Below are positions 13,425 through 51,050 of a stretch of DNA of 53,065 bases, piece by piece. Within the stretch, counting starts at the first letter, position 1. Each line of letters starts with the position of its first letter. Below the pieces are notes generated by a model. That model did no database searches and was not told the DNA's origin. It saw only the letters and a program-made list of their open reading frames with translations. The stretch is from Clostridiales bacterium DTU073. GTDB lineage: Bacteria > Bacillota > Peptococcia > DRI-13 > DTU073. The DNA is taken from contig LFSF01000029.1 of assembly GCA_001512665.1 (NCBI GenBank), positions 33,355-86,419 on the forward strand. The letters run 5' to 3'. Position numbers and translations under genes: made by a program.

Positions 13425-13979
13425 CTATCTTGTGGCGAAACATTGCGGGAATTGTCTTACAATGCCTTGTGTTAATAGATCGGCCATATGGAGTAGATGT
13501 AATTCGCCTATGTCGTAGAAATGTATATCTGATGCATAATCTTTATTTAGTCTGGCCACAGCTTGTGCCTTGACCTGGTCTAAGTGGATGCGCCACATAT
13601 TGCTCATAACTTCCCTTGACCAAAAAGAATTAATACGGGAGAGAAAAGTGGCAATTTGTTCACCATTGGCGTACCATTTCCTCTCGATATCTGCTGCTGC
13701 AGTTGTATCACCGGTTTTGGATGCCTTAACAAGTTGTGCTGCTAGTACTAAATGATCTGTCAATAAATTTTTCAAGCACTCGGCGATTTGATTTCCATAA
13801 TAACACTGAAAAACGGCCGCTATATCTCCGGGATTGCGCAGTAGTCTTTGTGTAGTAAGTTCTTCATCGGCTAGGCCTTCGGCTATGCTGATGATTGTCA
13901 TTCTTGTCCAAGCGGCGTGCTGTTCCCAGAGCATGCGCATCAGGTTATTTAAATAAAGAAAGCTTGTTTGTTGAGCCAT
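13425..13979 (-). CDS. Conserved all-helical protein of unknown function
   Basis: 184 residues, predicted almost entirely helical, without signal peptide or membrane segment. Conserved-looking features: MLWEQHAAWTRMTIISIA at the N-terminus, QRLLRNPGDIAAVFQCYYG, KWYANGEQIATFLSRIN and a C-terminal DLLTQGIVRQFPQCF. I recall similar proteins widely in Clostridia and Bacilli, sometimes mislabelled as acetylglutamate kinase or glycosyltransferase; nothing here resembles either enzyme. The histidine/tryptophan-rich helices allow a DinB- or hemerythrin-like bundle, but that is inference. AAGGAAGTG precedes the ATG. Confidence 0.78.
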   Translation of the reverse strand: MAQQTSFLYLNNLMRMLWEQHAAWTRMTIISIAEGLADEELTTQRLLRNPGDIAAVFQCYYGNQIAECLKNLLTDHLVLAAQLVKASKTGDTTAAADIERKWYANGEQIATFLSRINSFWSREVMSNMWRIHLDQVKAQAVARLNKDYASDIHFYDIGELHLLHMADLLTQGIVRQFPQCFATR

Positions 13980-15107: not shown

Positions 15108-16085
15108 GTGCGCAAAGGGTTAGTTGGTATTTTAGTAATTGTGAGTATTGTTTTCATGTTTTCTTTAATTGCTTGTAATGTTACTGATCCTATACAAACA
15201 ATGAAGACTCCGGCAGTAATAGAGAAGGTGGAGGTAGACAATTCTGAGCTTGGGGTACTTTCACAGCTGAAAGAAATTCTGCCTGCAGAGATTGAATTAT
15301 TAAAACTAACAAATTTAACAGAGCAAAAAAGGGATTGGCTAGAAATCGACTTAACCGGGGACGGACAAGCAGAACTTTTATTGGGTTATCGTGATAATGA
15401 TGAAAAGATAGGAGTTATTATTTTGCAGAAAGACGAGCCAAGTTATAAAAAGCTTTATATGAAAACTTTTGATAATTATGACTATCAATTGAGTTTTGAC
15501 AAGGTTATGGATATAAAAACTGCTCAACTTATTAATAACAAGTTATCTCAGGTTGTGGTAAGCTATAATTTTTATGCCTCAGATTACAATTCTTTATCTA
15601 CCCATATCTTAGGTTATGATCCGAAGGAAAAAGTAATTAAAAATTATTTTAGTTTACAAGATCTTCCTCAAGCAAATATGAAAGTTCAGTCAGATCGGAT
15701 TATCATTAGCGCAATGGGGATTTCTAAAGAGTATAAATGGAGTGGCAGTAAGTTTATTGGTAAACAGATTTACGAGATTCCGGAAGTCAACAAAAACGAT
15801 GTGGTTATACACTACGCCATGAGTAAAAAGGGACCTTTAACAGTAAGTAAGGAAGCTGTTGAATTAAATGTGGGGCAACGGTTGCTATTGATTCGTGATG
15901 ATCAATTAGATTTAGCAGAGAGGATTATGCAGGGCGGCGATGACCCCTCCTTTGTGGATATACTTGATTTTACTGCCGAGAAAGTCTATACAGCTCAAAA
16001 ACCAGGGATAGTACATTTAACTATTGTCCCAAATGGTGGCTATGATTGGGATAATGCTAAAGAGATAACAGTAACGGTAAAATAA
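15108..16085 (+). CDS. Lipoprotein with FG-GAP/VCBS-like segment
   Basis: About 325 residues with a lipoprotein signal (hydrophobic stretch then FSLIAC, the cysteine being the likely lipidation site). The region EIDLTGDGQAELLLGYRD looks like the calcium-type DxTGDGxAE loop of FG-GAP/VCBS repeats; the C-terminal part (about 225-325) contains an Ig-like or inhibitor-like beta module (LTVSKEAVELNVGQRLLL ... PGIVHLTIVPNGGYDW). GTG 15108 lies 8 nt after AAGGAG and starts 3 nt past the preceding stop, suggesting coupled translation with the sensor stub. Function unknown. Confidence 0.78.
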   Translation: MRKGLVGILVIVSIVFMFSLIACNVTDPIQTMKTPAVIEKVEVDNSELGVLSQLKEILPAEIELLKLTNLTEQKRDWLEIDLTGDGQAELLLGYRDNDEKIGVIILQKDEPSYKKLYMKTFDNYDYQLSFDKVMDIKTAQLINNKLSQVVVSYNFYASDYNSLSTHILGYDPKEKVIKNYFSLQDLPQANMKVQSDRIIISAMGISKEYKWSGSKFIGKQIYEIPEVNKNDVVIHYAMSKKGPLTVSKEAVELNVGQRLLLIRDDQLDLAERIMQGGDDPSFVDILDFTAEKVYTAQKPGIVHLTIVPNGGYDWDNAKEITVTVK

Positions 16086-16104
16086 ATTTATGTGATTAGA
16101 AAGA

Positions 16105-16142
16105 AATCCTCCTGGCAAGGCTAAGGTCGGGGGGGGTTTTTT
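16105..16142 (+). terminator. Terminator hairpin containing the PBP ribosome binding site
   Basis: AATCCTCC (16105-16112) can pair, with G-T wobbles, with the run of eight G (16129-16136) plus TT; six T follow (16137-16142) and the next gene's ATG is directly after. The G run is also the only ribosome binding site of that gene. Confidence 0.6.
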
Positions 16143-17879
16143 ATGCGTAAGCGGATTATTATAATCATGTTTACTTTTATGGTTTTATTTTTTATAGTCG
16201 CCGGTAGGGCTTTTTATCTACAGGTTTATAATGGTCCTTATTCGGGTCGGGAGTTAGCCCAAAAATCTTTGAACTATCGAAGTCAGTATCTTTCTGCCGA
16301 AGAATATTATCGTGGTGAAATATTAGACAGAAATTTGCTTTCTTTAACCGATAGCGGGATTAGACCTACATTGGTTGCTTTTCCGGGAGGGATAAAAAAC
16401 CTAGAAGTGACCGGTAAAAAATTAGAAGAAGTACTGGGAATCCCGGTCGATGAATTTAAGAAAAAAATTCGTCGCAGTCAGGAACACTATGGTTATCGTA
16501 CCCCTTTAATTTTAAAAGTTAATTTAACTGCCGAGGAAGTGCAAAAGTATCAAGACCATAAGATTGCCGGAGTTGCGATTATCCCGGTAAAAACAAGATA
16601 TGGCCCAAATTCTGTAGCTAAACATGTGATTGGCTATTTAAATAGTATAGATTCTCAGCAGTGGAAGGAATTGGTTCGGTCTAAGAAAACTGTAGACACA
16701 AACAGCTTTTTAGCTACTGCGTATCATTTAACAGATAGGATTGGCGTGGCAGGGTTAGAAGGTAAATATGAAGAGGTTTTAAGGGGTTCACAGCCTGAAA
16801 ATAAGATTGTCGGTTTTCAGGATGCCAATGGTAAACTGTTGGAAGGATTAGGGTATAAAATAATCAACCAGGAAGCTGATTTATGGCGAAATCATTTAGT
16901 TTTGACTTTAGACAGACGCTTTCAGGAAATTGTTGAAGAAGAAATTGACCGTGAAATTAAGCGAGGAGCTGTTGTCGTAATTGATATTCCCAGTGGAGAT
17001 GTTCTGGCTTTAGCCAGTAGACCGGATTTTAACCAAAATAAAGTAGAGCAATATCTTTCTGGGATTGATGAACTGCTTGATCGTACAGACAGGGTTGCTT
17101 TTTATCCCGGTTCTGTTTTTAAAATGGTAGTTGCGGCGGGTGTGTTAGAAAAGAAGTTGGTTTCTCCAGAAGAAAAATTCACCTGTACCGGTAAATATAC
17201 TTTCCCTGATCAAACGGAAATAACTTGCTTACGAGAACACGGAGAAATCACCCTTAAGGAAGCTATTGTTAAGTCTTGTAATAGCACTTTTATTCATTTA
17301 GGGTTACGTTTGGGAAATGCAGGATTTATTGAGTATGCTCAAAAACTAGGCTTTAATGTAAAGATAAACAATCAATCGCCCCCGGCTTTGTTAGGGAATG
17401 CCTCGATTGGACAGCAAGGGGTTTTAGTGAGCCCTTTGCAAATTGCTAATTTATATGCGACAATTGGACGGAAAGGTTTTTATTCTCCTTGGCGAATTGT
17501 GTCGCAAATCCGTAATTATCAAGGAGATGTGATTCAGGAATTTCCCGTTAAAAGACCTGAACAAATCTTAAAAGCTGAAACTTGTGCATTTTTAATAAAA
17601 GCTTTAGCCGAAGTTACTCGAGAAGGGACCGGTCAACAGGCTTGGTTGGAAGGGCATGGTACGGCAGGAAAAACAGGGACGGCTCAAGTTAATGAAGCGG
17701 GTAAGGTTATTGCTTGGTTTGCGGGGGTTTCTCCATTGGAAAATCCTCGTTTAGCTATTGTTGTTATGGTAGAAGAAAAAAAACAAGGTTCTTCGGTTGG
17801 ACTTAGTGGGGGAAATGCAGCAGCTCCAGTATATAGAAAAATAGCGGATAGAATATTAAATAGTTATTTAATTAATTAA
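16143..17879 (+). CDS. Class B penicillin-binding protein (transpeptidase)
   Basis: Monofunctional peptidoglycan D,D-transpeptidase, 578 residues, anchored by one N-terminal membrane helix (about 4-24). A dimerisation/pedestal domain (about 50-240) precedes the transpeptidase domain with S324-xx-K327 (PGSVFKMV), S378-C-N380 and K510-T-G512 (AGKTGTAQ), all catalytic motifs intact. No PASTA repeats, so it is not SpoVD/PBP2x-like in tail; it resembles PbpA/MrdA-type elongation or sporulation PBPs. ATG is 6 nt after a G8 run that is part of a terminator-like hairpin. Confidence 0.93.
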   Translation: MRKRIIIIMFTFMVLFFIVAGRAFYLQVYNGPYSGRELAQKSLNYRSQYLSAEEYYRGEILDRNLLSLTDSGIRPTLVAFPGGIKNLEVTGKKLEEVLGIPVDEFKKKIRRSQEHYGYRTPLILKVNLTAEEVQKYQDHKIAGVAIIPVKTRYGPNSVAKHVIGYLNSIDSQQWKELVRSKKTVDTNSFLATAYHLTDRIGVAGLEGKYEEVLRGSQPENKIVGFQDANGKLLEGLGYKIINQEADLWRNHLVLTLDRRFQEIVEEEIDREIKRGAVVVIDIPSGDVLALASRPDFNQNKVEQYLSGIDELLDRTDRVAFYPGSVFKMVVAAGVLEKKLVSPEEKFTCTGKYTFPDQTEITCLREHGEITLKEAIVKSCNSTFIHLGLRLGNAGFIEYAQKLGFNVKINNQSPPALLGNASIGQQGVLVSPLQIANLYATIGRKGFYSPWRIVSQIRNYQGDVIQEFPVKRPEQILKAETCAFLIKALAEVTREGTGQQAWLEGHGTAGKTGTAQVNEAGKVIAWFAGVSPLENPRLAIVVMVEEKKQGSSVGLSGGNAAAPVYRKIADRILNSYLIN

Positions 17880-25448: not shown

Positions 25449-25477
25449 GCACATTACTAATTTCACCGCCATATTAT
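25449..25477 (+). promoter_or_regulatory. Possible sigma-E promoter of sigK
   Basis: GCACATT (25449-25455) and CATATTAT (25470-25477), spaced 14 nt, match the sigma-E consensus (KMATATT, CATACAHT) at 6 of 7 and 6 of 8 positions. sigK is under sigma-E control in other spore formers. Confidence 0.4.
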
Positions 25478-25511
25478 TAAGAATGACTGTAAAAATGGAG
25501 GTGAAGCTGTA

Positions 25512-26207
25512 ATGGGATTAGGAACTTTAATTATTACTGTGATAACTTTAGTTAATAGCTTGTTACTGCTAGCATATTTTTTAAATAATAATGCTTTTCC
25601 TCATCCACTTTCCGAAAAAGAAGAAAGTTTCTACCTTGATAAAGTGCAGCAAACAGGTGATCTTAATGCCAGAAATGTTTTAATCGAACATAATTTAAGA
25701 TTGGTCGCTCACATCGCCAAAAAGTTTGAGGGTATGGGTGATGATAAGGATGATATAATTTCCATAGGTACCATTGGTTTAATCAAGGCGATTAATACTT
25801 TTGATATAGGTAAGGGCACAAAGCTAGCAACATACGCCGCACGCTGTATCGAAAATGAAATATTAATGCATTTAAGAGCAACCAAAAAAAATAAAGGTGA
25901 GGTTTCCCTTTATGAGCCCATTGGTGTAGATAAAGAAGGAAATGAAATCAGTTTAATTGATGTATTGGGTACCCATCCGGACATTGTTCCTGATGTAGTG
26001 CAAACTAACGTAGAGTTTCAACAAACTTTAGCGAAGATCAAACATTTGAGTAATCGGGAAAGAAAGGTATTAGAAATGCGATTTGGGCTAATCAATGGAT
26101 TACGTAAGACGCAGCGGGAAATTGCCAAAATGTTAGGGATATCCCGCTCATATGTTTCGCGCATTGAGAAGAGAGCGTTAGAAAAGCTAATTAAAGATTT
26201 AAAATGA
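25512..26207 (+). CDS. sigK: Sporulation sigma factor SigK, uninterrupted
   Basis: Late mother-cell sigma factor, 231 residues. The hydrophobic first ~25 residues ([18 protein letters not shown]) look like the pro-sequence removed by SpoIVFB. Region 2 contains [14 protein letters not shown] and [22 protein letters not shown]; region 4 has the helix-turn-helix [24 protein letters not shown]. The gene is continuous, so there is no skin-type element splitting spoIVCB/spoIIIC. GGAGGTG precedes the ATG. Confidence 0.96.
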
Positions 26208-47090: not shown

Positions 47091-47120
47091 TGCTTGAAGA
47101 TTATTATTTTAATTCACCCT

Positions 47121-47147
47121 GCATATAGATTACCGTAAACATATCTT
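47121..47147 (+). promoter_or_regulatory. Possible sigma-E-like promoter of ylxY
   Basis: GCATATA (47121-47127) and CATATCTT (47140-47147), 12 nt apart, resemble the sigma-E boxes. The spacing is short by about two bases and the match imperfect. Confidence 0.3.
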
Positions 47148-47164
47148 AAAGGGGTGAAATTAAA

Positions 47165-50062: not shown

Positions 50063-50069
50063 CTGGAAT

Positions 50070-50115
50070 AACCCTCCTTTACCTGCATAATTATAAAGTA
50101 AGGGAGGGGTTTTTT
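50070..50115 (+). terminator. Terminator hairpin containing the next gene's ribosome binding site
   Basis: AACCCTCCTTTAC (50070-50082) pairs with GTAAGGGAGGGGTT (50098-50111), one bulged G and one wobble. TTTTTT (50110-50115) ends directly at the next ATG, and GGGAGGGG in the stem is that gene's only ribosome binding site. Confidence 0.7.
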
Positions 50116-50445
50116 ATGGGAAAAATCATGTTTTTCCTAATTTTTTTAATAGTGTTCGGTATAGCTGTAAAAACAAAAAAGAAACTTCGTCATGCGAGAA
50201 ATTTGACGCGGTGGGAGGATGCTGTTGAGTCGCCTGCTTCACTGGCTATAGGGGAATTGGTAGCAGTAGCCGGAGGAATTTATCTGGCGTTAACGTTATT
50301 AGCTACATTTTTGAAGATTTCCATGCCGGAAAGACTCGTTTTTTTTGATTGGTCGGTAGATTATTTGGCTGCTATTGCGATTGTATTGGCAATTTTACAG
50401 CCGATAGTTTTAGCTTTATATTATAAAATCTGCAATAAATTTTGA
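50116..50445 (+). CDS. Small membrane protein of unknown function
   Basis: 109 residues with three predicted membrane helices (about 3-18, 48-68 and 82-102) and a basic stretch KTKKKLRHARNLTRWEDAVE between the first two. No family recognised. Start ATG 50116 lies 6 nt after GGGAGGGG, which is part of the preceding terminator-like hairpin. It sits between mlpA and ymxH, genes that are adjacent in B. subtilis. Confidence 0.8.
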   Translation: MGKIMFFLIFLIVFGIAVKTKKKLRHARNLTRWEDAVESPASLAIGELVAVAGGIYLALTLLATFLKISMPERLVFFDWSVDYLAAIAIVLAILQPIVLALYYKICNKF

Positions 50446-50790: not shown

Positions 50791-51050
50791 GTATTACCTC
50801 ACTCTGTGGAGTGGGGTAGGGGTTGCGATAATCAAGAGTATTCCAGGGAGTTGGCTACGAAGAACTGGAGGAAAGGGATATTCGCCGAAGTGTAGCAATT
50901 TGCCGGGTTGCTATACTGGGTCTGCATTAAATAAATGCAGGACTGTCATCTGATTGTTCCCGCCATCAGATGGAGAACTATCTCACTAAGGGAAGAGACC
51001 AGGTATTATTTTTGCAGCGATAGGTAGATACCTGTGGCTGTTTTTTATTT
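50791..51050 (+). promoter_or_regulatory. Lysine riboswitch (L-box) with terminator
   Basis: Core elements in order: GCGATAATCAAGAGTATTCC, GAGGAAAGGGATATTCGCCG, ACTGGGTCTGCATTAAATAA, GGACTGTCA and AACTATCTCA, aligning with the B. subtilis lysC leader. P1 uses ATTACCT (50793-50799) with AGGTATTA (51001-51008). The terminator stem CAGCGATAGGTA / TACCTGTGGCTG (51015-51040) is followed by TTTTTT. AGGTAT can instead pair with ATACCT in the terminator, forming an antiterminator. Lysine should lower dapBA expression. Confidence 0.93.

Follow-up and report, generated by a model that had tools for sequence, protein, structure and literature searches.

The hairpin upstream of a class B penicillin-binding protein (PBP) gene in Clostridiales bacterium DTU073 is, with a probability of roughly 70%, a promoter-embedded silencer of read-through transcripts. 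A developmental promoter would be threaded through a hairpin that masks the Shine-Dalgarno sequence (SD): the -35 would lie just 5' of the stem; the 15-nt spacer, unread by the sigma factor, would serve as the anti-SD 5' arm; the -10 would form the loop; and the start of transcription would be in the 3' arm, on the SD or close to it. Read-through RNA would carry both arms, fold and leave the PBP untranslated, and where a U-tract follows the hairpin, as at this site, such RNA may also be ended there. RNA from the gene's own promoter would lack the 5' arm, so that its SD should be accessible. Some 50 nt might act at once as terminator or insulator, promoter and ribosome-binding site, and production of the PBP would be confined to the times and cells in which its own sigma factor is active.

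The evidence, computational throughout, comprises a predicted hairpin, its dependence on the promoter spacer, the conservation of a promoter-like element, the co-evolution of the arms and the recurrence of the layout before other genes. From these patterns we infer the sigma factor, the start site, read-through, the translational block and termination.

Genomic setting

The window, meaning the whole 53,065-nucleotide stretch analysed here, comes from a genome of 1.67 Mb in 52 contigs, with a completeness of 96.4%. Its spore-forming genes include those for a sigma-F/G-type sigma factor (score over the cut-off) and SASP, as well as gpr and sigK. A match to spoIIR was found in 16 of the 18 genomes searched and was absent from the window's own genome. 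The sigK gene lies unsplit inside the window (25512 to 26207, + strand; NCBIfam match SigK). Several relatives have sigK matches that are broken up or incomplete, with a 5' part apart from one or two 3' parts, resembling a skin insertion (G007:C1:566598, 678758 and 728954; G010:C96; G002:C52 and C132; 5' parts at G014:C20 and G003:C141). The window also holds a 184-aa open reading frame (13425 to 13979, - strand) without a Pfam match, flanked by divergent genes. The orthologues compared are related and phylogenetically non-independent, which applies to every orthologue count given below.

A promoter-like element inside the hairpin

The features of the PBP leader, all on the + strand, are as follows.

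15108 to 16085, +, upstream open reading frame, called a lipoprotein in the sequence-only reading; without a Pfam or NCBIfam match
16094 to 16098, +, -35-like GATTA of the candidate PBP promoter; G..T(A/G) in 18/18 order orthologues, with a spacing of 14-15 nt
16099 to 16113, +, 15-nt promoter spacer with the anti-SD 5' arm AATCCTCCT, from spacer shuffling
16103 to 16116, +, 5' arm of the hairpin, from the MFE structure of 16103-16142
16114 to 16123, +, -10-like GGCAAGGCTA, which makes the apical pairs and the loop; GGYAARGMTA conserved in 18 orthologues
16126 to 16140, +, 3' arm of the hairpin, with one bulge and most of the G8 SD run (16129-16136), from the fold
16137 to 16142, +, T6 tract, a possible terminator U-tract, from the sequence
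16143 to 17879, +, class B PBP (Pfam PBP_dimer and Transpeptidase)

The top NCBIfam model for the PBP was TIGR03423 (pbp2), with a score below the cut-off. A gap of 57 nt separates the upstream frame from the PBP start codon in the same direction, and this frame would be the source of read-through RNA into the PBP gene. The sequence-only reading had placed at this junction a hairpin whose 3' arm is the ribosome-binding site of the PBP, and the structure is indeed there: AAATCCTCC...GGTC-G8 (16129-16136), T6 (16137-16142) and ATG (16143-16145). Positions 16103-16142 fold into a single hairpin of -14.5 kcal/mol with a 9-nt loop (ViennaRNA), the stem containing G-U pairs and a bulge. Against dinucleotide shuffles its stability is moderate only (z -1.6 to -1.9; 12-13 of 200 shuffles equal it), and when solely the 15-nt spacer holding the 5' arm was shuffled, none of 500 versions was as good (z -3.57). 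The hairpin is weak in the closest relative, G002 (-6.4 kcal/mol), and absent from the PBP leader of G005 in the fold of the 18 order orthologues. An unbroken G8 is found only in the window's genome among the 18 PBP leaders; a start within this run (16129-16136) could allow slippage to put extra G residues at the RNA 5' end.

The sequence-only reading overlooked a promoter-like element within the hairpin, formed by GATTA, 15 nt and GGCAAGGCTA. In the PBP leaders of the best matches, the most conserved part is GNNTA-14/15 nt-GGYAARGMTA and not the arms. This element is present in 18/18 order orthologues and in 6/6 class-level ones, and the strict whole motif is expected by chance about 2e-4 times per 80 nt. 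The end of the -10 lies 15-24 nt from the ATG in 18/18 PBP orthologues, which would place a normal start on the SD or immediately 5' of it; in the window, transcription would be expected to start at about 16127-16131, in the 3' arm. The -35 and the spacing match the spoIIR leaders of the clade (GATTA-n15-GKYAATACTR; 11 leaders), and the -10 differs from theirs at several positions (GGYAARGMTA versus GKYAATACTR). The consensus for sigma-F and sigma-G has a GNNTA -35, a 15-nt spacer and a -10 of the GGnRAnnnTA type, and the PBP promoter appears to be a forespore-type, sigma-F/G-like candidate. A spacing of 15 nt is described, in PMC5942855, as preferred by sigma-F promoters in B. subtilis and as the most common one in sigG promoters of Clostridia.

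The strict promoter pattern, when searched in 18 whole genomes, found mainly the PBP site, with the remaining hits scattered at about the control level; the pattern is therefore unfit as a regulon finder. Relatives of the PBP were present in 60/60 genomes, and the search of genome contigs added just two remote PBPs (Hyphomicrobiales and a Zixiibacteriota MAG), which enter no count.

The conservation of the loop bears on another reading, in which the stem-loop is a cis-regulatory RNA of the gene's own mRNA, a riboswitch or protein site with GGCAAGGCTA recognised in the loop. A loop better conserved than its stem is what this reading would predict, but the loop element is kept where the stem is missing, at a fixed distance from the -35, and the loops before other genes (see below) are unrelated and fit other sigma factors. 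Moreover, at the gathering score, Rfam matched a single element in the whole window, a lysine riboswitch at 50809-50988, and nothing at the PBP hairpin; the sampled orthologue leaders were likewise without a match at the hairpin. We consider a cis-regulatory RNA very improbable.

Predicted masking of the SD

The claim that read-through transcripts would have the ribosome-binding site masked is supported by a predicted SD exposure of about 0.05 in such RNA. Across the 18 PBP orthologues, the mean predicted exposure was 0.05 in read-through RNA, which begins upstream, versus 0.54 in own-start RNA, modelled with its 5' end 5 nt past the -10; in several orthologues the latter exposure is partial (range 0.11-0.94). 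Shuffling the spacer weakened the hairpin in 15/18 PBP orthologues (p<.05; mean z -3.1). Furthermore, in a motif-free test, where the cost of opening the SD was compared with the cost after dinucleotide shuffling of the preceding 60 nt, the SD was masked at p<=.05 in 13 of the 18. Two ways of escaping the mask had been suggested, an opening of the hairpin or a start of transcription inside it. The second is strongly favoured, since a conserved promoter-like element occupies the spacer and the loop in all 18 order and all 6 class-level orthologues.

A matching site and other developmental leaders

A second site in the window, upstream of a 109-aa protein gene, seems to have the same arrangement.

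50066 to 50094, +, sigma-E-like promoter candidate GAATA-n15-CATAATTAT; motif in 13/17 orthologues
50071 to 50085, +, spacer with ACCCTCC; 5' arm at 50072-50082, from the fold
50098 to 50115, +, 3' arm and SD GGGAGGGG followed by T6, from the sequence and fold; ATG at 50116 next
50116 to 50445, +, 109-aa protein gene, without a family match; orthologues in 17/18 genomes

This gene stands between an M16 peptidase gene and a PRC-barrel gene. The comparison with this site proposed in the sequence-only reading was made over 50069-50115: the hairpin (50072-50108, then T6 and the ATG) folds more strongly against shuffles than the first one (z -2.9; 1 of 200 shuffles). The orthologous leaders have GHATA-n15/16-CATA... 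in 13/17, and for 6 of these 13 shuffling the spacer had a significant effect (p<.05). The lysine riboswitch (RF00168; + strand, 115 bits) lies soon 3' of the PRC-barrel gene, and one is also found close to the second-site orthologues L139 and L145.

Two further masked leaders of the window are listed here.

25461 to 25511, +, sigK leader; 5' arm TTTCACCGCCAT at 25461-25472, 3' arm ATGGAGGTGAA at 25495-25505, ATG at 25512
47108 to 47164, +, leader of a ylxY/pdaB-like gene for a polysaccharide deacetylase; TTTAATTCACCC pairs with GGGGTGAAATTAAA, with no clear promoter inside

The promoter-in-hairpin layout appears to recur at the second site (sigma-E-like) and in the leaders of spoIIM (sigma-E), spoIIR (sigma-F), sigK and xerD (sigma-H-like). 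The spoIIM, sigK and xerD genes were picked as the top of a scan of G000, so that the G000 values are selected and those of the other orthologues are not. The spoIIM leaders carry a sigma-E-type promoter, for example GTTATATTT-ACCTCCTTTTCTT-CATAACATT...GGAGGAGGT in L211, and in family f8 both arms are altered in concert (CGTTCTTTTCCC with GGGAGGAGAACG). PMC517825 assigns the transcription of spoIIM in B. subtilis to sigma-E. Of 51 sigma-E-like leaders, 45 have the 5' arm within the spacer or at the edge of the -10, a count with a generous class boundary that uses an earlier version of the order-level start anchors, misplaced at contig ends. The 5' arm of the sigK leader extends into a -10-like CATATTATT (25470-25478). 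For spoIIR, 15 leaders were examined and the spacer shuffle was significant (p<.05) in 7 of the 11 that bear the motif. The xerD leaders have AGGAAAA-n11-GTGGAATTA with the arm within, an element that we take to be sigma-H-like from the consensus.

The xerD leaders (for example L252, L258 and L259) also contain a conserved AAAGAG...CTCTTT that could pair into another hairpin, one that rules out the SD-masking fold; switching between two folds is conceivable there. Directly 3' of spoIIM in G000 (C27:70404-70766) lies a gene for a 120-aa protein without an NCBIfam match, whose own SD is strongly masked (z 3.5), with an element of the CATAATAAA type in the hairpin loop.

Co-evolution of the arms

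In the motif-free test, masked SDs (p<=.05) were found in 13/18 PBP, 9/17 second-site, 10/17 spoIIM, 7/14 spoIIR, 7/13 sigK and 11/15 xerD leaders (1 of 16 xerD leaders skipped). Masking was seen in 0/15 gpr (1 of 16 skipped) and 2/22 ssp leaders, forespore genes set beforehand, and in 2/7 sigE and 3/15 sigF control leaders; the starts of four gpr (L153, L155, L160 and L163) and several sigF controls were apparently mis-picked, and the control sets exclude the partial gpr of G002 and G005 (L167 and L169) as well as six weaker SASP-family loci. In a phylum sample of spoIIM, formed by the best-scoring 30 of 129 spoIIM-bearing genomes, 8/30 SDs were masked at p<=.05.

The 5' region of each genome was also paired with its own SD region and with those of other genomes. 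Cognate arms paired better than swapped ones for the PBP (z -4.3), the second site (-3.7), spoIIM (-5.8), xerD (-3.7) and spoIIR (z -2.1, p.019), that is, in five of the six order-level sets; sigK gave no significant difference (z -1.2, p.13). The phylum sample of spoIIM gave z -7.45, with 0 of 5000 permutations as good. Among the controls, no cognate preference appeared in gpr (z -0.7), ssp (-0.2) or sigF (-0.1), and the sigE set (n=7) did show cognate-arm pairing (p 0.011), which counts against the masking reading.

These arms also inform the reading of the inverted repeat as a DNA operator, at which a repressor would sit over the promoter. Many sporulation promoters are under repressor control, and the dyad is centred on the -10; but the arms vary among orthologues yet stay matched, and the bulge and G-U pairs of the stem are of the RNA type, not of DNA symmetry, which speaks against an operator. 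This reading is the least probable of those considered, slightly below a cis-regulatory RNA.

Termination and masking

The likeliest competitor of a promoter-embedded silencer is that the upstream gene ends in an ordinary intrinsic terminator, which genome compaction merged with the next SD, the masking being a by-product and no regulatory start lying inside. The T6 is present, and the stretch from 16085 to 16143 has no further terminator. With the same earlier start anchors, misplaced at contig ends, the interval between SD and ATG was T-rich in 11/17 PBP, 7/17 second-site and 10/15 xerD leaders versus 31/328 unmasked genes, as this reading would expect; but the spoIIM (0/17), sigK (0/13) and spoIIR (0/13) leaders are masked without a U-tract (0/43 together). 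The promoter-like element in the loop and spacer also speaks against it, being present in 18/18 orthologues and in 6/6 that have no hairpin. We regard a terminator alone as unlikely, though less so than the two readings discussed above.

The description of the site as a terminator hairpin holds in part: a GC-rich stem is directly followed by a U-tract at 16103-16142, but the structure is a putative terminator, the T-rich tail being patchy among orthologues. A simple terminator scan did not list 16103-16142, as the 9-nt loop is over its limit. Since tails are absent from some hairpin-bearing PBP orthologues and from three masked sets, masking of the SD is the more constant property. Termination, plausible wherever a U-tract exists, is probably an added function at some sites, including the two named in the sequence-only reading.

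Among class-level PBP orthologues, the promoter element is kept in 6/6 with no significant embedded hairpin in any, and a separate terminator directly upstream abuts the -35 in 5/6. Within the order, a separate terminator precedes the PBP in 3/18 (L006, L007 and L008) and is lacking in 15/18; the hairpin of L007 and L008 is present yet weaker, and L006 has the hairpin with a T-rich tail. The natural reading is that the PBP element arose by the merging of an adjacent terminator and promoter.

Distribution in genomes

It had been expected that junctions of a G-run, T6 and ATG would be found elsewhere in the genome. The literal GGGGTTTTTTATG occurs only twice in the 1.67 Mb, both times in the window (control 0), so that the expectation fails for the exact string, while the layout itself recurs elsewhere. 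In a 426-kb sample of the window's genome, 35 of 363 genes with an SD were masked at p<=.05 (18 expected), an excess found mainly at same-strand gaps of 30-100 nt (14/99, 5 expected; 10 at p<=.017). In these ten genes the SD-ATG interval was T-rich in 5, versus the 31/328 unmasked genes. Divergent starts in this sample were masked in 5/23 (1.2 expected). In G007, a larger relative, a 400-kb sample contained 14/329 masked SDs (16 expected) and no overall excess; the layout is thus common in a compact genome but not universal. Regular-expression scans for sigma motifs in both samples returned mostly chance sites with no general enrichment, and sigma-A-like sites were masked in 0/19 at p<=.05.

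Over the six sets, the SD was masked in 35/48 orthologues that have a gene on the same strand no more than 100 nt upstream, in 16/28 where such a gene is farther off and in 5/15 with a divergent neighbour (close same-strand versus divergent, Fisher p 0.012, uncorrected for kinship). Closeness alone is insufficient for masking, since sigE and sigF starts with a close same-strand neighbour, taken as operon-internal, were masked in only 3/19.

Implications and comparison with known systems

The control of sporulation is usually put down to which sigma factor transcribes a gene, and read-through in compact genomes would breach that control. If a promoter spacer also served as an anti-SD arm, the result would be a post-transcriptional lock with no added DNA, holding sporulation genes silent until the right cell activates them. 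Such a lock would explain pyrimidine-rich spacers that co-vary with the SD, and the spacer/SD signature could be searched for, leading to genes whose mis-timed translation is harmful. Whether this extends to a general code is, in our estimate, an even bet: in spore-forming Bacillota, compartment-specific promoter spacers would provide anti-SD insulation, only RNA made with the sigma factor proper to each gene (F, E, H and others) would be translated, upstream leaks would stay silent, cell-type identity would be protected after transcription, and spacer and SD would co-evolve across the phylum.

A literature search by title and abstract, with most subscription journals outside its reach, turned up no paper in which the spacers of promoters read by several developmental sigma factors serve as anti-SD arms across genes and families. 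Known systems share parts of the arrangement. Intrinsic terminators have a stem and a U-tract in common with the PBP site and three of the gene sets; at PBP-type sites, in contrast, the loop is a -10, the 3' arm is an SD and the U-tract is missing in half the sets. In the transposase leaders of IS10 and IS50, outside read-through RNA is masked and RNA started inside is unmasked. The masking of outside transcripts is the likeness to the PBP site; the difference is that these leaders serve the self-restraint of a mobile element and not cell-type control.

Closer precedents are found in phage T4 and B. subtilis. In PMC3014915, early read-through RNA of T4 gene e is described as masking the initiation region, whereas late RNA starts inside, without the 5' strand, and is translated; the structure lowers synthesis 100-fold, and T4-related phages retain a late promoter in the 5'-strand region. 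Gene e concerns the timing of phage lysis, whereas the sites described here belong to bacterial developmental promoters of several sigma types, with the arm in the -35/-10 spacer and a U-tract at some of them. For sigG (spoIIIG) of B. subtilis, a large hairpin is proposed to block translation of spoIIG read-through RNA and is unable to form in PsigG RNA, as PMC5942855 has it. That hairpin has 20 or more base pairs and concerns one gene, whereas the PBP-type sites have short arms in the promoter spacer and occur in several genes and several families. The claim that the PBP site works like these systems is strong because of T4 gene e and sigG. Hairpin-masked read-through with an own start inside is, as a principle, already known from both; what looks new is its repeated use in the spacers of developmental promoters.
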